This document shows positions 2,504 through 63,700 of a stretch of 64,000 bases of DNA, in pieces. The DNA lies in the NCBI GenBank assembly GCA_017506865.1, contig JAFCMP010000096.1, positions 124,001-188,000 on the forward strand. The letters are read 5' to 3'. Numbering within the stretch: the stretch's first letter is position 1; each line of letters opens with the position of its first letter. The notes under the pieces are model-generated. The model searched no databases and was not told where the DNA came from. It saw nothing but the letters and a program-made list of their open reading frames with translations. A program made the position numbers and the translations under genes. This DNA is from Tribonema minus. Lineage: Eukaryota > Sar > Xanthophyceae > Tribonematales > Tribonemataceae.

Positions 2504-3779
2504 TGCTCCTTCACCGGCACGCTGTTCGTGGACCCCGTCAAGAGCCGCGTTTGCGGCCACACCTTCAGCAAGGCCATCCTCGGCTACATCCGCTCCAAGG
2601 GCCACGCCGCCGTGTGCCCGATGGGCGGCTGCAACCAGCCCATGCGCGCCGACGACATGGAGCCGGACCACGCCATGGAGATCAAGGTGCGGCCGCGCGT
2701 CGCGCATGCGTGCCAATGACGTGACTTGTGTGGCTACCTCTACATAGTCGCTTGCCCCTCCTGTGAATGCGCATGTATACAGGTGCGGATCACGCCATGG
2801 AGATCGAGGTGCGGTCGCGCGTCGCGCATGCGTGCCGTTGACGAGACCTTTGTGGCTACCTCTACACGCGTCACTTTCTTCTGTCATGAATGCAAATGTT
2901 GTAGTCCAGGTGCTGCTTCGAAGTGCGCCCATTCAGCCGCTGCGGGTGAGCGCTGTTTTGCGCGCGTTTCACCGTGACGCGGCGACCCCACCAGGGAGAC
3001 GAAGGCGCGGCCGCGAGCGCACTAGCGGCATCTCGGTGCTACACAATTGAAATCAAAACGACTCGAGTAAGGGCCGCGGTGCCATGAGCATGGGATGCGC
3101 CGTACGCGCGCATGGCCTCTAGGAATGGCATCGCCTGCGCGGACGGCATACGGTGAACTGCGTCTCCGCTACATAAATGCCATGTGGGTACACGGTGCGC
3201 GCAGCTGGCGGCGCGCCGCCGCCGGCGCATGCACGCAGAGAAACCGCGCTGCAGCCAGGTCGTGCCATGCAGATCGCCGCGCGCCGTCACGTGGCATCAG
3301 TGCTATGCCGCTTGCGTGCGCTGCAGTGGCAGTGCATGTGTTGCGTTGTGAGCTTTTCAACTGAATGCTGCAGCCAATGAGAGCGCCCCCCTTCTCCCCC
3401 CCTGCCCCCACTCCCCCCCAAGCCCCCTTGCGCGCTCCGCATGGACTTGGGGGCTTGAAGTAGATGGCTGCATGGCTTTCCTGTACGGCACTCGACAACT
3501 CTCAATCTTCATGTGTCCGACAAAACTTATCGCTCATTCTGCTATGACCACGCTGCCAAGCCCAACATCAACCCCACTTGTTTCTATCGCTCAGACCCCA
3601 GCGCCCCTCAAGCGGAGGCAGTTGCGCCGTTCTGAACATACAATATCCGACTCTCCGCCGCGCAGGTGCAGCGCCATCGGCAGGTGGAGGAGCAGACGCA
3701 GCGCGAGCGGCAGCAGCGCTCGCAGGATGACGGCAGCGATGATGATGACCATGAGGGGGAAACCTATTACCGCGTCTGA
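2504..3779 (+). CDS. NSE2/MMS21-like SP-RING SUMO ligase, 3' exons (5' part not resolved)
   Basis: Two exons are clear: 2504-2686 (acceptor AG at 2502-2503, donor GT at 2687) and 3666-3779 (acceptor AG at 3664-3665, stop TGA 3777-3779), joined in phase 0. The first encodes an SP-RING zinc finger: CSFTGTLFVDPVKSRVCGHTF, then AVCPMGGCNQ and an acidic MRADDMEPD tail, with zinc ligands of the NSE2 pattern (C...C-x-H...C...C). The second exon encodes a Gln/Arg/Glu-rich and Asp-rich C-terminus ending in YYRV. In other eukaryotes NSE2/MMS21 is the SUMO E3 ligase subunit of the SMC5/6 DNA-repair complex. The SMC5-binding N-terminal coiled coil must lie in exons upstream of 2504 that I could not place. 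Domain identity is good; orthology is inferred. Confidence 0.72.
2669..2912 (+). repeat. 122-bp tandem duplication across an NSE2 exon end and its donor site
   Basis: 2669-2790 and 2791-2912 are tandem copies. Both contain CACGCCATGGAGATC, then AAG or GAG, then GTGCGG, and both run into GTGGCTACCTCTACA. The first copy holds the functional exon end (donor 2687); the second carries a decoy donor at 2809. It is the smallest example of the splice-edge duplications seen elsewhere in this window. Confidence 0.8.
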
Positions 3780-29333: not shown

Positions 29334-30152
29334 CTATCCCCGCTCCGTGGCGCCGTTGCCTTGCCGTCCGTTGTTGGGCTCCACGCGCAGGTCGTCGGTG
29401 ACGATGTACGCCGCCTTGTCGCGCTTCGGGTACGCCGCGGTGACGCCCCCGAGCCACGCGCTCAGTACCATCTGCACGGCGACGGTGATCTTCCTGCGGC
29501 GCCGCTCGCCGGGGATGGACACCGTGGCGCACGCGAGGGTGCCGCCGGACGGGGAGCGCAGGTCGCTGGTGCTGATCATGAAGTGGACGCCGTCGAGGTG
29601 GACGAGGCGGCCGCGCTGCACCACGAAGGTGCTGTCGTCGACCTGGGCGCCGTCGACCAGGGCTCGCAGCATCTTGAAGATGTTGACGACGGCCTGGCCG
29701 TCTGCGAATTGGCGAGCGGAGCCGTCGGGGGGGAGGGCCTGGCAGAACAGTCTTGCGCCGCCGTGCTCTCTCATCGCCGATTCCTGCTCTGGAGTGAACC
29801 AAACGTCTGCCGATGGTGGCCGCTCCCAGCCTTGAGGTGCTCTGGCGCTGGGGTCCTCTACGAGAGTGACGGCTACGAATGGGGCCTGCAGAAGCTGCGG
29901 TAGCAACGCCCTCACGTCTGCTGTTGCGAACTCTGCCCTTGCAATGGTCTGGTGTATGTTCGTGCAGCTGGTGTCCCTGCAAAGCTTGGAGGGCTTGACG
30001 TAGGTGCCCGTTGTCTGCAGCGCCATAATTGCCATCCCTCGCTGCTGCCTTTCCTGTGCACAAAGCGCGGCGACGACATCGCCGCCGGTGCTGCTACAAG
30101 TGCTGGTGCTGTCGATACTGCAGTGGCTGTGCTGGCTGCCGAAGTCATCCAT
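29334..30152 (-). CDS. Paralogue A of an unrecognised protein family (intronless)
   Basis: One open frame of 272 codons runs from ATG 30152 (MDDFGSQHSHCS) to TAG 29334-29336. The conserved part begins near residue 85: VRALLPQLLQAPFVAVTLVE, SADVWFTPEQESAM, KMLRALVDGAQ, LVHLDGVHFMISTSDLRS, ATVSIPGERRRRKITVAVQ and AAYPKRDKAAYIVTDDLRVE. The gene downstream on the same strand (31712-33194) shows the same order of blocks with clear similarity, so coding is well supported. I do not recognise the family; there is no signal peptide or membrane helix. Paralogue B has an intron after LVDG that A lacks, so A may have arisen through an RNA intermediate or lost the intron. Confidence 0.7.
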   Translation of the reverse strand: MDDFGSQHSHCSIDSTSTCSSTGGDVVAALCAQERQQRGMAIMALQTTGTYVKPSKLCRDTSCTNIHQTIARAEFATADVRALLPQLLQAPFVAVTLVEDPSARAPQGWERPPSADVWFTPEQESAMREHGGARLFCQALPPDGSARQFADGQAVVNIFKMLRALVDGAQVDDSTFVVQRGRLVHLDGVHFMISTSDLRSPSGGTLACATVSIPGERRRRKITVAVQMVLSAWLGGVTAAYPKRDKAAYIVTDDLRVEPNNGRQGNGATERG

Positions 30153-31711: not shown

Positions 31712-32036
31712 TTAGCCCCCCACGAAACTGCTCTGGCGCTCGTCGCGCAGCGCGTCGACATACAGGTCCTCGGTGACGACGTACGCGGCGCGCTCGCGCT
31801 TCGGCTGCGCGGCGCCGACGCCGCCGAGCCACGCGCCGACGATGTTCGGCACGGCGACGGTGAGGTGGCGGCGCGCGCCGCACGCCCACGGCATGGACAC
31901 GGTCGCGGACGGCAGCGGCACGCCCGTCACCGAGCGGTACTCGCTCGTGCCGACCATGAAGTGCACGCCGTCGAGCGGATCGAGGCAGCCGTCGCGCGCC
32001 AACAAGACGGCGGTGTCGTCGGCGGGCGGCGCGCCT

Positions 32037-40952: not shown

Positions 40953-43900
40953 ATGGTCGCCCTCAACGCTGCTGCGGCAGCAGTAGTGGCAGCTTGTGCT
41001 CTATGCGATGGTGTTGCAGCCTTCAACGCCCTCAATACAGGCAAAGCCCCACTACCTACTGCTGCTGCCAGCACGTCATCTTGGCCGATCCTGCAACTCC
41101 ACCATGGCGTCGCCAAGTCCATAGCATCGGCCGCCGCCGCTTTGTCGATAGGACTCGGAGCGCTGCTGCAGCACCCAGCTCCCGTTCTTGCGCTAAACGA
41201 GCAGCAGCAGGTGGTGGCGGAGGTGTGGAGGGCAGTGGACAGGCTGTACTTGGATCGGTCCTTCAATGGCGTTGATTGGTTCGACCTGAGGCAAAAAAGT
41301 ATCGCCAAAGTTGCGTCGCCCATGAGCGAGACGGAGCTGAACAAGGTGAGCATGGGAGCACCGCTGCTCTGAGAAATCTCATCTTCTTCTTTAGAAACAT
41401 GCAACTTCAACTTGCATTGCACTCGATCTTTTTGTTGAGAAGCAGCTACTTTGCTTGTCGATGCTGCTTCAATCATTAGCCGGAACATGGAATCGCAGCA
41501 GCAGCAGCAGCAGCCATTTGTTGGGGGTAATCAGCCGCTGGCTGGCTGCATGCATGGCAAGCCAGAGCCGACGGCACGGCGGCCGCCAGCTAGCCACCAG
41601 ACCGGACCGCATTGCTCCCTGTGCCGGTGCACCGCTTCCAAATGTGATGCGCTGACGCGTTGCATTGGGGCTTTCAATCTCACACCATACGCCGCCATTC
41701 TATGAGCTGCCAAATTTGTGAGCCACCACTGGCAAGCGTGGAACAAGTACATCGACACCTGCCAGACCTCAATGTGGGCTAATATTCATGTCTCTGGAGT
41801 AGTGACTGCACTCTCTGAGCTGGGACTTGACATGCAGCGTCTCTCTGCACGACTCAAAAGGGTAAGCTTTGCTGACGCGTGAGTGAGCGGCAATATACAT
41901 GCCTCCCCTTCACGGGAACCCAGCTAGCTGGTAACATCACCAAGACGCACACACAAGCCAACGTCACACTCGATACGAGCATTGTAGAGTGTTTAATCAC
42001 AGGCTGGGAGTTGATCGTGGGCAGATGTTTGTCGTTTTATGGCGATGTCCAGACAATGCACCGTCTACCTGTGTGGTGACAGCTGGCACCAGATAAAGCT
42101 GACAGCAGAGGGAGGAGCGTGCGGCGCCACGCATGACATTTGCTCCAAACACTTCTTTCTGCATGCTGCGCTCCTTCACGCTGCAACGCGTGACTGCACA
42201 TGCGAACGCGAGCAGGGCTCGTAACTGTATGATGGGCCATCATGCGGCGGCACATGCCAGCAGCTTTCTTGTCTACAGTTATACGTTCACGCGGCGCGTA
42301 TCATTGCACACACAGTGCGCCTCTACCAAAGGCATCACGCCGCGCAGCACAGGGCGCCACACGGCGCTGCTGTGGCTCTGCAACCCCATCTCGTGCAGCC
42401 CCTCCTCGCGCTCTATACGTCAGCGTGCGAGGCCCTCTCCCGGTTCGCGATACATACTGTATGCCCGGACTCATGGGACTCGTGTCCAACTACAACGCCT
42501 GGCTAGGTCTCTAAGGGGACTCACGACCTGACTCGTGAAGTCATGCCATCGCGACTGGTGCCTTGACTTGAAGTCAAAGTCATGGAAATATGCCTCGACT
42601 CATGCCAACGTGTCTCTATTGCCTGCGGTCATGCCAACGGGACTCATGCTGTGACTCGCTGATTCAGGCGAGATACGGCATCTCGCTGTCCACTTGCGGG
42701 CACGCTTGACTCAACGACTCATACACGGCTCTACTGACCGATGCCTGGACTTCATGACTCACTGAATCATGACATGACTCATTGACTCATGGCGTGACTC
42801 AAAGACTCAACGCGCGTTCTCCCCCCCCCCCCCCCGCAGGTCATCGCCGACATGCTGTCGCAGCTCGGCGACAAGTACACGCGCTACCTGCCGCCAGCCA
42901 AGTACGAAACCATTGTCCAGGTGCGTCAGCAAACACTCCCTTGTCATTTATTGTCATCAGGACTGCTGCCCCCCGCAAGCCGATACTTGACGTCTGTGAC
43001 AACAGTTGGAGGCGTTCATGGTTGCCGTTTGCCGCTGACGCGATAGGGCGTGCCTCGGCAGCAGCTGCTTGCTCTGTGACGCGTGCTTGTGCTCGCTTCT
43101 TCAGGTGGCGCGTGCACGGCAACAGTTAGGCAGTGATGCGCAGGCAGCGAAGCTCAGGTAGCGAAGCTCTATCAGCACAGCTCAGGCAGTGATTTTCAAT
43201 TGGGGCTGCTTAGTCGCTGACAGTTCTCTGTAACTCAGCAGTGCTCAGGCAGCGAGCTCAGTCAGTGATGCTGAGTATCCGCTCTGGTGTAGACCGCGCA
43301 GTGAGACTCATTCAGTGGTGCTCATTCACGGTGCAGCAACGCCAACATTTCCATGCAGACTGCCGGCATTTCCTGCGCTAGCGCTGTATTTGACGAGCGC
43401 TGAGCCGTGTTGGCAAGCCCTGAATCTACCCCTCATAATGTACTGTTCTTGTGTATCGTGGCGTCAGGCCGCACTCTGCACACAAGTCCGGAGCGCGGTC
43501 CGCGCCTCTGCCAACCCTTTCCCTAATCCTAAGTTGCCAACGGCTAGGGTTAGGGTCAGGGCTAGATGCTGCTTCAGTTACCGCGCTGCCGCCGCTCTGA
43601 CTCTGTTTTGTATCATGCGGCCCGGCCGGACTGCGGCACACATCGTGCCGGCACTCACGCATTGACTCAACACGCACTCAGTGACTCGCGAACTCTGACT
43701 CACTTGCGCAGAGCGCCAGCGGCCAGCTGGCGGGCGTGGGCGTGCAGATCAGCTTGGAGGGCGACTATCCTGTGGTGGTGGACGTGGAGGTGAGAGCAGT
43801 TACGCGCCTTCACGCATGAAACTCATGAGCGTGATACACCTAGCGGCTGTGGCTGATTGTTGTGTGGTGCGGTGACTACCCCGTGGTGGTCGACGTGGAG

Positions 43901-46900
43901 GTGGGAGCAGTTGCGCGCATTCACGCATGAAATTCATGCGCATGATTCACTGCAGCGTTTGGCGGTCATCGCTGACTGACTGTCAACGACTGGCGCATGT
44001 GCCGCTGCGTTCGGGGGGGGGGGAGGTGACGTTTTGCACGAGTGATGATGGCCACAATGGCTTGGAGGGCAACTAACCCCGTGGTGGTCAACGCGGAGGC
44101 GAGAGCGGTTACGCGCGTTCACGCAATAAATTCATGCGCATGAATCGCTTAGCAGCTGTGGCTGAGTGTTGTGCTGTGTGGTGCACGCAGATGCAAGCAG
44201 TCTGTGCGCAACGAGGTTGACTGTGCTTGTACGAAGTATGATTGCGACGGATCTTGCAACTCGATGACTTACGTCAGCGCAGAGGGCGACTCTCCTCCCC
44301 GATACCGCAACCAGTGGCAATCATTTGATGTTCTTCATGCATGACTCATGCATGAAAGGTGAAGTTGCAACTGCAACTGGCCAGCGAGTTCCCTGCGGAC
44401 GCGAGAGCCGCGGCAGGCAGCCTGTGTTCGCATGCAAAAACTGCATGATTTCACTTGTCGTTGACTGTGCCGCAAGCGCTGGTGCATGTCGCTGGTTCTT
44501 ATCAAGTGCAGTCGGGTGGTGAGAACCAGGTCTCAGACCACGCGCAGAAGGGCATCCCGGCGCCCGCGGTAGAGCTGAAGGCGGGCGATCTGCGGGTGCA
44601 TGACTTCAACTTCAACTCATACTTCACTTATTGCTATAGCTTATCTCGTTGTCATCAGCGCCGCTGATGCGCGTCTTTGCACACGCTGTCGCTGTCGCTG
44701 CTGCTGCCGGCGCAGGAGGGCACGCCGGCGGCGGCGGCGGGGCTCAAAGCGGGCGATCTGCTGGTGCAGGCGAGCGGCGAGGACCTGCGGGGGTACACAC
44801 CCGATGACACCGCAGCGCTGCTCAGGGGGCCGGAGGGGAGCCGCGTTGGCGTCGTGGCGAAGAGGGGGGGCACACAGGTGCGTGCTTATTAGGCTCTTTC
44901 TAGCCACCAAAGCAGCATTTCATGCTCGGGCTGATAGAGCTCTTTCTCGCTACCAAAGCGGCGTCTCGTGCTCAGGAGCCGGAGGGGAGCTCATTAGGCT
45001 CTTTCTCGCCACCGAAGCGGCATCTCGTGCTCGGGGGGCGAAGGCGGGCCGCGGGGGGGTGCACATATGCTATCAGGCGCTTTCTTGCCATTAAAGCGGC
45101 ATCTTGTGCTCGCGCGGCTAGAGGGGGGGCGGGGGCACACCCACACACTCTTATTAGGCTCTTTCTCGCCACCAGAAATGCAGAAGTATACTTGGCGGTG
45201 CCTTGGGGGGCTTGGGTACCCGGATCGCCCACTCATCAATTCTAGCGATATGGCTGCGTCACTAAAGGGGGCGGAGGGGAGCCGCGTTGGCGTGGATGGC
45301 GCGGGGGGGGGGGCTGCACATGTGCACACGCTTATTAGGCTGTTTGTCGTTGACACAAGCCCACACACAATCATCATGATGGAGCGGCACTGTGTTGATG
45401 GTGTGAACTGCCTTTTTGTTGAGTATACATCTGTGGCTTTTTGTCGCTACTCAAAACGTACTTCAAAGTATTCGAATTCAGTGTTTGTGGTGCCTTGACG
45501 CACGTACTTGACTGAGCCTCGCAGCCCGGCGGCACTGCTCAGGAGGTGCAGAGGGGCGGCGTGCACGGACGTTGTTCTTCAGCTAACGCGGCAGCAGGGT
45601 GCTGCTGCGTCACATTGGTTTGTGCGGTTGCAAGGCACATGTAGCAAAGAAGCATTAGGGATGAGCAAGCACCGAGGAGTGAAAGCGCAGCTTTGCTCAG
45701 GCGGCAAAAGGGGAGTCGCGAGGCGGCTTCTCAGCCCCGAAACCCCCCCCCCACATACACTCACACACCCAACCAGAATCCTTTCTGTTGAATGCTCAAC
45801 CCGCTCCTCATGCACGCCGCCGCCGTCGCGGCCGCCGCATGCACTCAGACCCGCGCCGCTGCGCCCCACACGCCGCAGCAGCCGCGCTCTTTACCCCCCC
45901 AAAACCCCTCCCCCCCGTCCCCCCCGCGCATACACTCAGCCCCCTGCTCACCTGCATACGCGCATGCTTTAACGCATGCCCGACGCCGCCAAAGCAGCGC
46001 CCCTCACCCCCCTCACCAAACCCCCCCCTAACCCCCCCCCCCCCCCCCCGCCGCGCGCGCGCAGACGCTCGACCTCGTCCTCACGCGCGCGCGCTTCAAG
46101 ATCCAGGGCGTGCGCGGCGCGCGCACAACGCTCAGCGGCGGCGGCGGCACGCCCCCTGTCGCCGTCGTGCGCGTCAAGTCCTTCAGCGCGACGACGGCGG
46201 AGGACGTGGCAGCGGCGCTGCGCGCGGCGCGCGCCGCGGGGCCGATTGGCGGCGCCGTGCTGGACCTGAGGGGGAACGTGGGGGGGCTGCTGCCGGGCGG
46301 CGTGGACACGGCGCGGCTGTTCCTCCCCGCGCAGCGCGACATTGTGTTTGTGGTGGGGAAGACGGGGGTCGTCGCGGCGCAGGTGAGCGGAGGAGCGTCA
46401 CACGCTTGCACTTTAGTATGTTTGTTGCGCGCAATGTCAACATTGGTGTTGCGTGGTGCACCCGTGGTGTGCTGGTCGTCTCGGCACTCCTTGCTTAGTT
46501 TCTGAGTCTGGGGGGCGGAGTTGCCGGCGCACTTTACTGCGTGGTGTGCGCGTCTCGCGCAGCCATCGGTACACATTGTCTTCGTCGTGGGGAAGATGGG
46601 CGTCGTCGCAGCGCAGGTGAGCGGAGGGGTGCCACATGCGCGCATTTGGTGGCGTGTTTGTTCTTGTCAGTCGTAGCACTGGGGGGCGCAATTTGCACTC
46701 GTGCAGGCACTGGTATTGTGTCCGTAGTGGGGAAGACGGGGGTCATTGCGGCGCAGGTGAGCGGAGGAGCGTCACGCGCGCGCACTTTGGTAGGAAACAA
46801 ACTTTGTCATGGAAACGATTCAAACAATCGCAGAGCTCTAGGTGACAGGGCGTGGTTAGCCGCAGACGCCTTCCACCGATGACCGTGGTCGTGGCTGCTG

Positions 46901-48805
46901 CGGCAATTGGCCAAACGTCATGTTTGTAACGCACATTGCGTGGCGCACGCGTGGTGCACGCACGGTGTGCATGTCCGTCTTGTCACTACCTAGTTCCTGA
47001 GTCTGGGGGGCGGAATCGCGGGCGCGCTTTGCTGCGTGGTGTGCTTTAGGGTTAGGGTTAGGGTAACCCTAAACCTTACCTAACCCTAACCCTGTCTGCC
47101 GCTGTTTCCTGGGTCTGGGGGGCGGAAAAGTTGCGGCCGGGGTCCGAGACGCGGCGCAGCCATCTGTGCTCGCGCGCTGCCTTTTGTACCTACTTCTCAG
47201 CATCGTGTTTGTGGTGGGGGAACACACGGGGGTCGTCGCCGCGCAGGTGAATGGAGCGTCACACGTGTATTTTTTATTATTATTGTTGGTGTCGCGTGCA
47301 TGCCTGTCCATCGCTCTATTTCGGAACAGAGCTGCCTGGACTCTGGGGGGGCGGAGGTTGCGGGTCGGGGGGGTCAAGGACGCGGCGCGTCTAGGTTTTG
47401 CTGGCGCAGCGCGTTGGCTGTAGAAGTATGACGTTTGTCATCCGCAAGACGGCGGCAGCAGCGGGGAAGGTGATGGGCGTCTGCGCGCGTGTCGTGTGCG
47501 TCTGCAGCGGCAGCAGCGATGACGGCGTTTGCTCACGGTTTGAAGTTGATTTCCCCCGTCGTCACCAGGGCACAGGCGCGGAGGGGGGGGGTCATCAGGG
47601 CAAGAGATCTCAACTTCAACTTCAACTTGAGACGAAAGCGGAAATTACGGCGTTCGCTTACCGCATGAACCTGATTTTCCCCCATCATCACCAGGGCACG
47701 GGGCGCGGACGAAGCCGTGAGCAGCACGCCATGAAGCAGCAGCAATGACTGCGTTCACTCACGATTTGAACTTGATCTCCCCCATGGTCACCAGGGCACG
47801 GGTGCTCAGGTCCCGGGGGGGGGGGCAAAACAAAACAAATTCAACTTCAACTTGAGCATCACGCCACGAAAGCACAGATGACGGCGTTCACGGTTTGAAT
47901 TTCAACCACCATTTCCCCCGTCGTCACCAGGGCACGGGCGCGGAGGAGGGGGCGGAGGTGAGCGTCCCCCTTGCAGTTCTCGTGGACGGCAGGACGGCCA
48001 GCGCCAGCGAGGTGCTGAGCGCTGCTTTGCAGGAGAACGGCCGCGCCAAGCTGGTGGGCACCAAGACCTTCGGCAAGGGCGTCATTCAGGTACGATTGGG
48101 CTAAAGTACTTCGAAGTAGGAACTTGAATGCTTTGACGAATTACTGAAGCGTTGAGGGCTGCGCTGTGGGGAAAAGGTCGCACCAAGCTGGTGGGCACCA
48201 AGACGCTTGGCAAGGGCGTCGTGCAGGTACCGCTGTGATTCTCTACTGGCTTTTATGCTGCAGAAGTGGTATGAATTATTGCTGAGCTGTGCTGCTGTGC
48301 TGGCCGCGCCGTGCTGGCGGGCACCAGGGCGCCAGGCACGGGCGTCATCCAGGTACCGCTGTGCTGCCATAGTAGCTTCTGAGCTGCAAGTAGAAGTAGT
48401 TGATCAGCTACTGGCGCCACTGTGCTCCAAGTTGCTGCAATATAGTTGGTGAACCATTGCTGAGCGCTGCGCGTCTGCAGACCTCAACGACACAGCCGCT
48501 GTCGGGCGGCGGCGACGTCGGTGCCATGACCGGTACAGTCAGACCAGGTCCAGGGCCAGACGAGCCCAACAGCAGTGCTCACACGCATCTCCCCCCCCCC
48601 CCCCCGCCCCCCCATCACTCCCCCCCTTCTGCAGACGGTGGAGCCGCTGTCCGGCGGCGCGGGCGTCGCCGTGACCGTTGCGCGCTACGAGACGCCGCAG
48701 CGCCACGACATCAACGGCCGCGGAATACCCGTCGACGTGGAGGCGGCGTGCGCGCCGGAGCAGCCGGCGCAGGACTGCGTGCCCGCCGCCGCGCTGGCGC
48801 GGTAG
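40953..48805 (+). CDS. ctpA: CtpA-like C-terminal processing peptidase (S41), plastid D1-processing type
   Basis: Exons 40953-41345, 42840-42920, 43712-43789, 44716-44877, 46065-46382, 47931-48089 and 48635-48805 (TAG) all join in phase 0, giving 453 residues. The N-terminus ([20 protein letters not shown]) is followed by VAAFNAL, an AF-type site expected of a bipartite plastid presequence, and then a second hydrophobic stretch. The mature part starts near [20 protein letters not shown], as in algal and cyanobacterial Ctp[12 protein letters not shown] precedes a PDZ domain ([31 protein letters not shown]). The S41 core has [18 protein letters not shown], the catalytic Ser in TASASE and the Lys in TKTFGKG, and ends [12 protein letters not shown]. 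CtpA trims the D1 precursor in the thylakoid lumen so the oxygen-evolving cluster can assemble. Most introns carry decayed tandem copies of the adjacent exon edges. Confidence 0.88.
42470..42810 (+). repeat. GACTCAT/TGACTC-rich degenerate minisatellite in ctpA intron 1
   Basis: More than a dozen GACTC cores, many as TGACTCA or GACTCATG, occur in about 340 bp before the second ctpA exon. Confidence 0.7.
43755..44180 (+). repeat. Decayed tandem copies of the ctpA exon 3 end and donor
   Basis: The true exon end GACTATCCTGTGGTGGTGGA is followed by a donor at 43790. Related copies read GACTACCCCGTGGTGGTCGA, with an intact donor at 43901, and AACTAACCCCGTGGTGGTCA, with a GC instead of GT at 44099. 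Each is followed by similar intron sequence (TTCACGCATGAAATTCATG and variants). Confidence 0.8.
44548..44612 (+). repeat. Ghost copy of the ctpA exon 4 start (PDZ segment) with its acceptor
   Basis: After CGCGCAG at 44541-44547 it reads [20 protein letters not shown], against [20 protein letters not shown] in the true exon at 44716. It lies 168 bp upstream. Confidence 0.75.
44885..45330 (+). repeat. Tandem repeats derived from the ctpA exon 4 / intron 4 junction
   Basis: The unit TTAGGCTCTTTCTCGCCACC plus AAAGCGGCATCTCGTGCTCG recurs about five times between 44888 and 45180 with changes. GGCGGAGGGGAGCCGCGTTG near 45270 repeats GGCCGGAGGGGAGCCGCGTT of exon 4. Confidence 0.75.
46565..47255 (+). 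repeat. Three decayed copies of the ctpA exon 5 end with donors
   Basis: The true exon 5 end is TGGGGAAGACGGGGGTCGTC then GCGGCGCAG and donor 46383. Copies ending in GCGCAGGTGA lie at 46611, 46751 and 47241, each preceded by GTGGGGAAGATGGGCGTC or similar. All three keep a GT donor (46617, 46757, 47247). Confidence 0.82.
47045..47093. repeat. Head-to-head telomeric repeat: (TTAGGG)n then (CCCTAA)n
   Basis: TTTAGGGTTAGGGTTAGGG is followed directly by TAACCCTAAACC and then CTAACCCTAACCCT. It lies inside ctpA intron 5, among exon 5 ghost copies. Confidence 0.85.
47530..47940 (+). repeat. Array of four intron-end/acceptor/exon-start units before ctpA exon 6
   Basis: TCACCAGGGCAC preceded by a pyrimidine tract (TTCCCCCGTCG or TCCCCCATGG) occurs four times, with exon-start positions 47569, 47695, 47795 and the true 47931. 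Upstream of each is GGTTTGAA-type sequence, and CAACTTCAACTTGA lies between units. Confidence 0.85.
48035..48360 (+). repeat. Array of three exon 6 end/donor units after ctpA exon 6
   Basis: The true end GGCAAGGGCGTCATTCAG is followed by GTACG at 48090. Copies GGCAAGGGCGTCGTGCAG and GGCACGGGCGTCATCCAG are each followed by GTACCGCTGTG (donors 48227 and 48353). Spacing is 137 and 126 bp. Confidence 0.85.
48481..48535 (+). repeat. Ghost copy of the ctpA exon 7 start with its acceptor
   Basis: After CTGCAG it contains CAGCCGCTGTCGGGCGGCGG, against GAGCCGCTGTCCGGCGGCGC in the true exon 7 at 48635, then similar GTCGGTGCCATGACCGGTA. It lies 154 bp upstream. Confidence 0.78.
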
Positions 48806-60798: not shown

Positions 60799-63700
60799 TC
60801 ACTTCTTGGGTGTAGACGTAGGCACTGACGTGTCCGGTCCGGGCTGCCACAGGTCCAGCAGGCCCTGTCAAGTGGCAGCGGGAGAGGCGTGCAGCGAAAG
60901 TGCAACATCAATCGTGTGTGCATCCACTCTTGCAGTTGGCTGTGCTACGTGAGCGAGAGAGAGCAAGTGAATCGTTGCAAGATTCGTTAGCCAGTCTTCG
61001 TGAGCGTTGCAATGGAGAAAGGCAGCGCATGAGGAAGAGCAGCATGTCCAACACAGTTCGTTGGCCCCCGACCCCTGATACAGCAACGCACTATTTCTGC
61101 GGGGAATAAATGACTTGAGAGGGGGAGCCACGCAGCGATGGCAGGGGCACCCCAGAGCCATTGACTGGCATGAGCGCACTGGCGACTCCGATGTTTGGCT
61201 ATTCTCAAAAGGTTGTGCCCAGCCCTACAGTAGTTTCACGACACAGTGCTTCTTGCGCAAAGCAGGCCCTCGCTGCGTGGGCACGGCTGCACTGTCGCTT
61301 GGTGCGGGCTGCTCTTGCCAGCATCCGTTTCAAATGTACACTGTAAAGCTACAACACGCAACGTCGTTGCCGAGCCTCAAGCTGAACTTGAGGTTGATGC
61401 TGCGGTCAACTCGTATCCACTGCTGCGAGGCGCGTGATATCCAGCTCTGCAGCGTTTGAACCGCTGCGCGACGCCTAGGGAGCTGTCCTTGCGGTGGTTG
61501 CGGATCACGCCTGACTTGAACTTCAACATGATTTCTACAACTGTAGCTACTTCACGGTAACATTTTCCAGCACCTTCAGCACAAGGCGGGGCCTGCTGCA
61601 GCAGTGCACGCCCTCCGTCGCATTAGTGGTGATCAAAGTGCCACAAGCAATGGATGGCCTCGACAAAGCTCTGCTGACACCTTGCATATCAGGAATTGTT
61701 CGCTTCACGGCCTTCTTGAGGTGATTGTGAAGACACCACACCACTCCCTGAGCCTGCAAGGGCGGCCCCTCGCCAGCACCTCTAGATTGTAGATGTGCAG
61801 TTGAAGTTTGTCATCGAGGTTGAGTGTTGTCATACTTGAATATGCTACGTATCGTCCAGTACGCCCCGTAGCTGCCGTTCACGACTAAAGCATTGGCTGT
61901 CATGGATTGCAGCGAGATGGCGATAGCCTCGATTGCGAGCTGCCATGGTGCGCGACATTCCATGCTCAACTACAACTTCAACATCTAAACAACCCTCAAC
62001 TTTCAGAAGCGCAGTGTGCATTTGAGCCATGTGTGGTACGTTGAGGCACTAGCCTCAACGCATGATGAGGTCAACTGCTGCCATTCTTGCATGGACGTCA
62101 CCACATTCGACCTCACGCCCAACGTTCCTTCCGCAGCGCGGCGTATCCTCACCTGCCCCCTGAGCTTGGGGGCCCAACCACATGCTCCCCTACACGGCAT
62201 TATTGCGTGCCGCGCGCGCACTCGACCTTCGCCACGCAGCAGCAGCGGCGGCGCGCGCTCTCCGCGACGCGCAGCGTCTGCGACGCCCCAATGACAACAC
62301 CGCCGGCAGCACTCGGCCTCACCTGCTCTTGGGGCTCGGGTTCAAAGCGCAAGTTCTCACACGCGCCGCGCGTGAACGCCTTGAGGCGCCGCGCGATGGC
62401 TTTGACGGCAGCAACGAGTACCGTCATAACCGTCACAACAGCCAACCACACTCATCCTCGGTGATGCCAACAACAATGATGACAACGTCAGTGCTCGCCC
62501 TCACCTGCCCCTTCAGCTTGAGGTCGAACCGCACGTTCCCCCACACGTTGCGCGCCTCCGTTATCTCTACCTGGGCCGCCTCAAGTCGCTGCACGATGGC
62601 CAAGATCGCAGCAACGACTACACAAGTAGAGCAACTCAACCCACATAATGACAACAACGACAATGATAACAACAGTGCTCGTACTCACCTGCCCCTTGAG
62701 CTTGGGGTCGAACCGCATGTTCTCCTTCACGCCGCGCGCCTCCATTATCTCCACCTTGGCAGCCTCGAAGCGCCGCGCGATGGCCTTAATAGCGCTGTCC
62801 TCGCGGCCCTTCTCACGCGCCGTCATAAGCTTCTCCTTGTCCTCCTCCGTCATTAGCGGCTTGACGTCCATGGGCATCTCCCACCGCGCCTTGCAGGGGG
62901 GGGGGAAGGGGGCGGGGGGGAGGGGGGGGGGGGGGGGGGGGGAGCAAGTACACACACTGTGACTTGAGACTCAGACCTGCTTCGCACGTATGCTGCGCAG
63001 CAGACCGCGCTGGCGCCATTCGTGCATCACCATCAGTGCTCGGCGGCATGTGCAACCGTTTCCCATCAGCAACACATGTGCCGCTCTTGATCATGCATAT
63101 GTACGTCTCCCACACTGAAAGTGCGCTATGCCATCAAAGCGCCGTGGCGCCGGCGCCTGGCGGCGCCGCGCCGCTCCCTGCGCATACGGCCCATCCTCGA
63201 TCGCCCATCACAGCGCCGATGCTACCTTCGGTCCACCTCGCACGAGACACGGCCACACGCGCGCCATCGCCGCAACCGCTCCAATGATAGTGACGCGTGT
63301 GCAACCGCTTCTCGTCAACATGCACTGCTCCCGACCACGTGTACATGCATACACCCTCTAACACTGCGAGGGCGCTGCGCTGCGCCATCACAGGCGCCAT
63401 CCATGGCAACGGCACCTGGTGGACGCGCACGCACATACCTGCTCCGCGCCGCCGTCGTTGCCCGGCGGCGCGCCGCTGTTCTCCGCGCGCACAGCTCATC
63501 CTCCAGCACACGCCTGGCACCACAGCGACAATACTACCTTCAGTCCTACCTGCACAAGACACGGCTGCAGCGCGCCGCGCCGCGCGATCCCCCCCCCCGC
63601 CCGCATGCGCATGCACACAAACGTCCTCTAAAATTGCAGGTGCGCTACGCATGCCATCAAAGCGCCTCGGTGGCGATGGCGCCTGGCGGAGGCGGCGCAC

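Follow-up and report, generated by a model that had tools for sequence, protein, structure and literature searches.

Intron growth is usually ascribed to transposons, and exon copies with their splice sites lying next to an exon are known from tandem exon duplication; small tandem duplications have reportedly been found in rice by Vaughn and Bennetzen in 2014. Tandem exon duplication copies whole exons, whereas in the gene studied here, ctpA, only exon edges are copied, and one further locus (L016) may be a whole-exon form. Short tandem duplications left by staggered double-strand break repair are well described (Schimmel et al., 2021, PMC8355091), the gain of introns through tandem genomic duplication of AGGT has been reviewed (PMC3443670) and reported in potato (PMC4974935), dual-specific AGGT sites occur in repeats (PMC10809524), and introners represent one element copied into many genes (PMC9860276).

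The copies reported here resemble the break-repair duplications (PMC8355091) in being direct, abutting and short tandem; however, the latter are single new mutations, mostly < 100 bp, whereas the copies here pile up, nest and decay, and span many introns with splice junctions inside. With AGGT-mediated intron gain (PMC3443670) they share a tandemly duplicated stretch of exon with a splice-site motif in it, but there the duplication creates a new intron, whereas here an existing intron is enlarged and the duplicated site is surplus. As with the dual-specific or recursive sites (PMC10809524), AGGT in intron repeats could act as both donor and acceptor, although the copies here are known from sequence and one copied donor is skipped. 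A mutational process reshaping introns across the genome is common to introners (PMC9860276) and the present case, but each copy here derives from the exon next to it. In the literature searched, which covered few subscription papers, no description was found of introns growing through junction copies; the duplication process is thus known, while its extent and the junction-copy outcome look new.

The window, namely the whole 64,000-nt stretch of Tribonema minus DNA analysed (contig G000:C96, 124001-188000; assembly of 158 Mb in 554 contigs), carries the seven-exon ctpA gene (Table 1), the product of which is a C-terminal processing peptidase of 453 aa. The nearest named homologues listed are proteins of ochrophytes (Chrysoparadoxa, 58% identity; Ectocarpus, 55-56%), and no close transcript was found among the 120 proteins listed in the homologue search. 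All six introns are GT...AG introns between codons, and AG precedes GT at six of six donors (AG/GT). Intron gain by AGGT duplication was considered and rejected for this gene, as the acceptor precedes GT in 1/6 introns and the copies sit within introns already present. Acceptors 2, 5 and 7 follow long C runs (42820-42839, 46030-46064 and 48590-48634), which is atypical for a poly-pyrimidine tract. Elsewhere in the window, a coding-looking segment of ~270 nt occurs twice, at 29388-29652 and 31763-32031, 2.4 kb apart and with 73% identity.

Each ctpA junction, named D for an exon end or A for an exon start and numbered by exon, was represented by 40 nt on the exon side and 40 nt on the intron side and compared by alignment with its own intron and the remaining five, with 200 Markov shuffles of the own intron per junction as control and z ≥ 6 as threshold. 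Eight of the 12 junctions resembled their own intron at z ≥ 6, above every one of the 200 shuffles, with scores of 52.5 (D3), 33.5 (D4), 58.0 (D5) and 34.0 (D6) at exon ends and 26.0 (A4), 28.0 (A5), 41.5 (A6) and 20.5 (A7) at exon starts, against shuffle maxima of 16.5-19.5; D1, A2, D2 and A3 were at chance level against their 200 shuffles, and no junction scored above 19.0 against the other five introns of the gene. Since the A5 match consists of poly-C only and its reverse complement also scores (19.5 vs a shuffle maximum of 17.0), it was left uncounted. The weakest junction, A7, fell below threshold with shorter 30+30 windows, with which 7/12 ctpA junctions (one of them the poly-C A5) matched their own intron vs 1/276 for unrelated introns.

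In a sliding profile, duplicated stretches fell on those junctions and throughout introns 3-6, and exon centres and introns 1-2 were nearly flat; introns 1 and 2 hold no junction copies, having weak repeats only, with scores up to 20. The copies are in direct orientation and placed on the intron side. Exon-edge copies in the ctpA introns are therefore confirmed as real, as a sequence-only reading of the locus had proposed for exons 3-7: the ends of exons 3, 4, 5 and 6 and the starts of exons 4, 6 and 7 matched as mapped. Its further point, that edges are copied without whole exons, was borne out as well, with edges but no complete exon copy seen in the repeat families, the profile and the alignments.

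Table 1. Positions in the window of ctpA, its exons and the exon-edge copies of ctpA and of other genes.
Feature	Position	Strand	Basis or remark
ctpA	40953..48805	+	seven-exon open frame, S41 profile matches, homologues
ctpA exons	40953-41345, 42840-42920, 43712-43789, 44716-44877, 46065-46382, 47931-48089, 48635-48805	+	
Exon 3 end copy 1, with donor and intron start	43871..43950	+	86% to 43760-43839, 80 nt; donor GTGGGA
Exon 3 end copy 2, donor decayed to GC	44076..44183	+	repeat families, pair alignment
Exon 4 start copy, with acceptor	44542..44600	+	81% to 44710-44768; score 26.0
Intron 4 start, tandem copies, some with exon 4 piece	44884..45126	+	repeat family D4, 61-78% to reference copy
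Exon 4 end and intron 4 start copy	45253..45349	+	75%, 59 nt, to 44812-44870; repeat family D9
Exon 5 end copy 1, with donor	46563..46652	+	77% over 78 nt; donor score equals real one
Exon 5 end copy 2, with donor	46715..46792	+	88% over 78 nt; donor score equals real one
Exon 5 end copy 3, with donor	47201..47279	+	62% ungapped; exon part 39/43
Exon 6 start, three copies, with acceptor	47510..47810	+	acceptors after 47568, 47694, 47794; repeat families D5, D10
Exon 6 end, two copies, with donor	48146..48388	+	repeat families D3, D8; exon part of first copy 63/81
Exon 7 start copy, with acceptor; weakest	48481..48532	+	score 20.5 vs shuffle maximum 16.5
Other gene, exon end copy with donor (junction 2686/2687)	2786..2866	+	90%, 81 nt, to 2664-2744
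Right-edge gene (exon 62689-62889), exon end copies with donor	62148..62601	-	82%, 134 nt, to 62655-62785
Right-edge gene, copies around donor 63700/63701	63139..63488	-	76.7% over 163 columns

Many introns of this genome contain decayed tandem copies of neighbouring exon ends together with their splice signals. Predicted junctions were surveyed in ~260 kb made up of 20 random loci, three S41 loci and the window (L016 left out), wherein 26 of 397 junction windows were dropped for low complexity and copies within 1.5 kb were counted for the 371 kept. A strong direct copy accompanied 46/371 junction windows and an inverted one 1/371; in the random loci alone the counts were 27/246 and 1/246, with the direct copies spread over 8 of the 18 loci having junctions. 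The home-made gene finder, which returned ctpA exons 1-6 exactly and ended exon 7 early, also called copies as exons, and therefore these counts, as well as the position profiles, are inflated. A cleaner set was built from genes with exons anchored by homology or transcript, namely the CCT chaperonin genes L032 and L033 and the S41 genes C390, C174 and C526, in which 10/46 junctions matched their own intron at ≥ 18.5 (L032 5/10, L033 2/16, C390 1/8, C174 2/6, C526 0/6) vs 1/1088 for introns of other genes. Given matches to other genes' introns in only 1/1088 and, with the shorter windows, 1/276 comparisons, introner-like dispersed elements were rejected.

The anchored genes were not chosen for copies: L032 and L033 were fetched as loci without clear profile overlap, and C174 and C390 (L003, L004) came via the S41 search, their copies being already known before the anchored test. 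In L033, 7/16 exon borders are a few bases out, and those of L032 differ between two anchored tests, with the match at D1 in one and D2 in the other. In the earlier of these tests 11/44 junctions matched, one of them in L025, which was picked after its copy was seen and is excluded from the 46 junctions, C526 being in the 46-junction test only; nine of the ten matches outside L025 hold at least 5 nt on each side of the junction, and one L033 exon start match (span 30/0) is intron sequence only. HSP70 profile matches gave no clear junction copy, with one 30-position overlap at C190:755980-757113 and smaller ones, and DEAD matches were of no use to the test. In a protein search, an L023 gene showed 65% identity to a Phaeothamnion relative, and no same-species transcript for it was found.

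A whole-genome CCT profile search gave 56 matches at about ten loci by our own grouping, and neighbouring matches cover the same profile positions at three of them (C5, C51 and C135), which we take to be the epsilon, gamma and theta subunit genes; near 809 kb of C279 the matches overlap by 31 positions. The DNA of these three loci (L029, L030 and L031), fetched because matches overlapped, enters no rate. L029 holds four tandem copies of the start of one exon, the real exon counted, and two of its end, L030 about five extra copies of an exon end, and L031 an exon start with two extra copies. Copies follow one another without a break in the arrays of L029 and L030, and in L030 a copy block is itself copied. 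The CCT-alpha gene matches exactly the EukProt transcript-derived protein P0122 (residues 51-559), the closest named CCT-alpha proteins being at 78-84% (brown algae, Vaucheria, Chrysoparadoxa); therefore, transcriptome data exist for this organism or one almost identical to it. On protein identity, the sole basis, the organism would be an ochrophyte, probably close to brown and yellow-green algae. The occurrence across the genome that had been raised as a possibility from ctpA is supported by random loci, anchored genes and three CCT genes, similarity to the own intron exceeded that to unrelated introns in ctpA and the anchored genes, and the proposed repeated short tandem duplication with intron lengthening is supported by the direct copies and the contiguous CCT arrays.

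Local repeats were direct in 89 cases and inverted in 1 at E 1e-6 (window plus 13 loci; 56 direct without L016), and direct in 209 vs inverted in 33 at E 1e-4 with looser scoring, and the duplication units are ~65-340 nt, head to tail, in the cases seen. Exact abutment was seen in young pairs of L009, L018, L024 and L028, none of them at a predicted splice junction, and in many junction pairs of 85-92% identity the copies are instead separated by long gaps; the only gap traced, in L021, holds a further nested duplication. Our reading is that tandem duplication occurred in repeated, nested rounds and that the copies were later altered or lost. Nine predicted exons of 75-78 nt stand in a row at L016 3223-7691 with strong local direct repeats, probably a whole-exon tandem duplication. 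At L026 6263-6548 and 9239-9924, small predicted exons copy each other; in pairs with exon identity ≥ 90%, 11/11 counted mismatches (the counts overlap) are at third positions, and these are perhaps real repeated exons.

As for fate, pooled differences between exon and copy at codon positions 1:2:3 are 80:82:138 (68:53:106 in an earlier pooled count over predicted junctions), and those between copy and copy are 134:127:170, the latter not being independent counts; the copies compared were taken by greedy local alignment at a low score of 14, such that weak ones, notably of exon 4, may be chance. A neutral copy of a synonymously changing exon predicts ~1:1:2 and ~1:1:1, respectively, and judged by these ratios most changes in the copies look neutral. 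A general coding constraint on them was rejected from the codon positions, CCT-epsilon excepted: copies of its exon start (L029 92-384) differ almost only at third positions (pooled count 6:2:30; a single copy 2:0:14), a pattern that formerly coding sequence would give. In the CCT-theta start copy, the exon half is identical at 102/105 positions, and the 182-column alignment with the intron half is at 85.7%.

The presence of competing splice sites, as claimed for ctpA, is supported at the sequence level. In ctpA, the exon 5 donor scores 8.0 and its copies 8.0, 8.0 and 6.8, and the exon 6 acceptor 3.8 and its copies 3.8, 3.5 and 3.3; lower copies accompany the exon 3 donor (6.5; copies 4.9, 4.6), the exon 6 donor (5.8; 3.4, 3.4), the exon 4 acceptor (8.6; 5.6) and the exon 7 acceptor (6.8; 3.8). 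The CCT-alpha donor and its copy both score 7.7, and the CCT-theta acceptor scores 5.9 with copies of 2.9 and 7.9; the set leaves out misplaced sites (real: CCT-epsilon D, CCT-gamma D; copies: CCT-epsilon D, GIY, CPSase). In the transcript-derived protein of CCT-alpha, splicing is from the outer donor, and the identical copied donor 106 nt downstream is skipped, the identity spanning 13 exon and 8 intron nt. In this gene at least, then, the choice is made by position or exon context and not by the strength of the site.

The sequences show that the copies are direct, that some young duplications abut without a gap, that many genes are affected, that the differences look mostly neutral, that several copied sites have full strength and that one copied donor is skipped in a transcript-derived protein. 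We consider it probable that short tandem duplications arise often and genome-wide, and that those spanning a junction are tolerated and kept recognisable by the frozen exon. The duplication step itself would be break repair with fill-in, or slippage. Duplications inside exons would change the protein and mostly be removed by selection, those wholly inside introns would be nearly neutral, with both copies drifting, and a duplication straddling a junction would put an extra half-exon and splice site into the intron. The mRNA would remain unchanged while the outer pairing is used, namely the first donor after the exon and the last acceptor before it, and such duplications would be tolerated because the complete exon is still spliced by the outer sites. 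Exon definition probably enforces the outer pairing, since a copied half-exon has one proper edge only, and would be the reason for the tolerance; edges rather than whole exons would accumulate because, by exon definition, a whole-exon copy would be spliced in, as L016 may show. Later rounds would copy copies, the intron lengthening and the copies decaying, and old copies of exon edges should stay recognisable for longer than those of plain intron because selection freezes the exon.

Whether junctions are also special targets, duplicating more owing to co-transcriptional structures, nicks or sequence, bears on the earlier claim that duplications arise at exon-intron junctions, of which the recurrence there is supported; special targeting is the less likely reading. 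Outside ctpA, duplicated windows make up 14.5% at donors and 6.5% at acceptors vs 2.9% in intron interiors, 2.0% in intergenic sequence and 3.7% in exon interiors (coding repeats included), and the donor profile peaks exactly at the junction (12.7%) and is 0.9% at 100 nt into the exon; the peak and the excess over intron interiors would fit targeting. However, exon-free windows at +60 nt drop to 2.2%, within the intron-interior scatter (0-5%), windows with their centre 60 nt or deeper in the intron show no more duplication than its remainder, and duplications without exon sequence occur, both between genes and in introns, including three intronic pairs in L032 and L033. Since introns away from junctions are duplicated too, targeting is not needed, and survival together with longer visibility, which favour junction copies anyway, can account for the junction peak. 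Nevertheless, junction windows exceed intron interiors ~5-fold at donors and ~2-fold at acceptors, figures which the gene finder inflates, and this is more than longer visibility alone readily gives; as the donor excess is larger than fully explained and partly gene-finder inflation, targeting is unlikely but stays a live rival. The excess counts against tolerated genome-wide duplication as the preferred account, as do the gaps between the 85-92% junction pairs, and neither the CCT-epsilon ratio nor the well-kept exon half in CCT-theta is predicted by neutral decay.

That the copies are functional, retained to serve as alternative exons, decoys or step-wise (recursive) splice sites, would suit the copied sites that match real ones in strength, the AG/GT context of all six ctpA donors, the stretch within exon 5 end copy 1 (46563-46616) that the gene finder takes for a complete small exon, and the CCT-epsilon differences; it is nonetheless improbable, as the pooled codon positions fit neutral decay, the copied D3, D6, A4 and A7 sites are weaker than the real ones, and the identical CCT-alpha donor is skipped. 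The synonymous-only differences in CCT-epsilon and the kept exon beside a diverged intron in CCT-theta could also arise if copies came from a diverged allele or relative of the gene and looked old from the start, but the pooled differences are not synonymous-biased beyond expectation and the roughly ten CCT-type loci of our grouping fit one gene per subunit plus organellar chaperonins, such that this origin is very improbable. Mis-joined haplotypes or reads in the assembly would hardly give short copies diverged to ~60-95%, up to about six in a row, nested and on many contigs, nor an exact agreement of the CCT-alpha DNA with an independent transcript-derived protein, and such an artefact is extremely improbable. 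Chance or low complexity, on which the poly-C match of the ctpA exon 5 start does depend, is just as remote for the rest, and is ruled out for the set as a whole by the shuffle, reverse-complement and unrelated-intron controls, which are at or near zero.

Doubled TTAGGG or its complement occurs 21 times in 250,487 nt vs 0.00 expected, in 15 clusters, 13 of them in predicted introns (window 15448 and 47046; L012 7449; L015 7681; L017 639-1665; L018 3316; L021 547-5911; L023 1678; L027 98). A link of these stretches to local repeats was considered and found not convincing, 5/15 clusters lying inside repeat spans vs 2.3 expected. It is conceivable, though we regard it as doubtful, that introns of this ochrophyte lineage grow mainly via break repair by the telomere machinery (CST and polymerase alpha fill-in, telomerase), which would leave tandem duplications and TTAGGG stubs with introns as the sink. 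If so, a large share of splice junctions would carry one or more near-perfect decoys, and the spliceosome would face a crowd of rivals from its own gene.

Because the copies derive from an exon edge of the same gene, the origin of some of the intron sequence is directly readable. Each copied junction is also a natural experiment, in that a similar, sometimes identical splice site lies close to the real one, and could allow the cues used by the spliceosome beyond site strength, such as exon definition and the order of transcription, to be measured and intron growth to be dated. Gene finders may call junction copies exons in this genome, as the home-made one did. Exon-edge copies look like a route of intron growth, and they raise the question of how the cell chooses the correct splice site.
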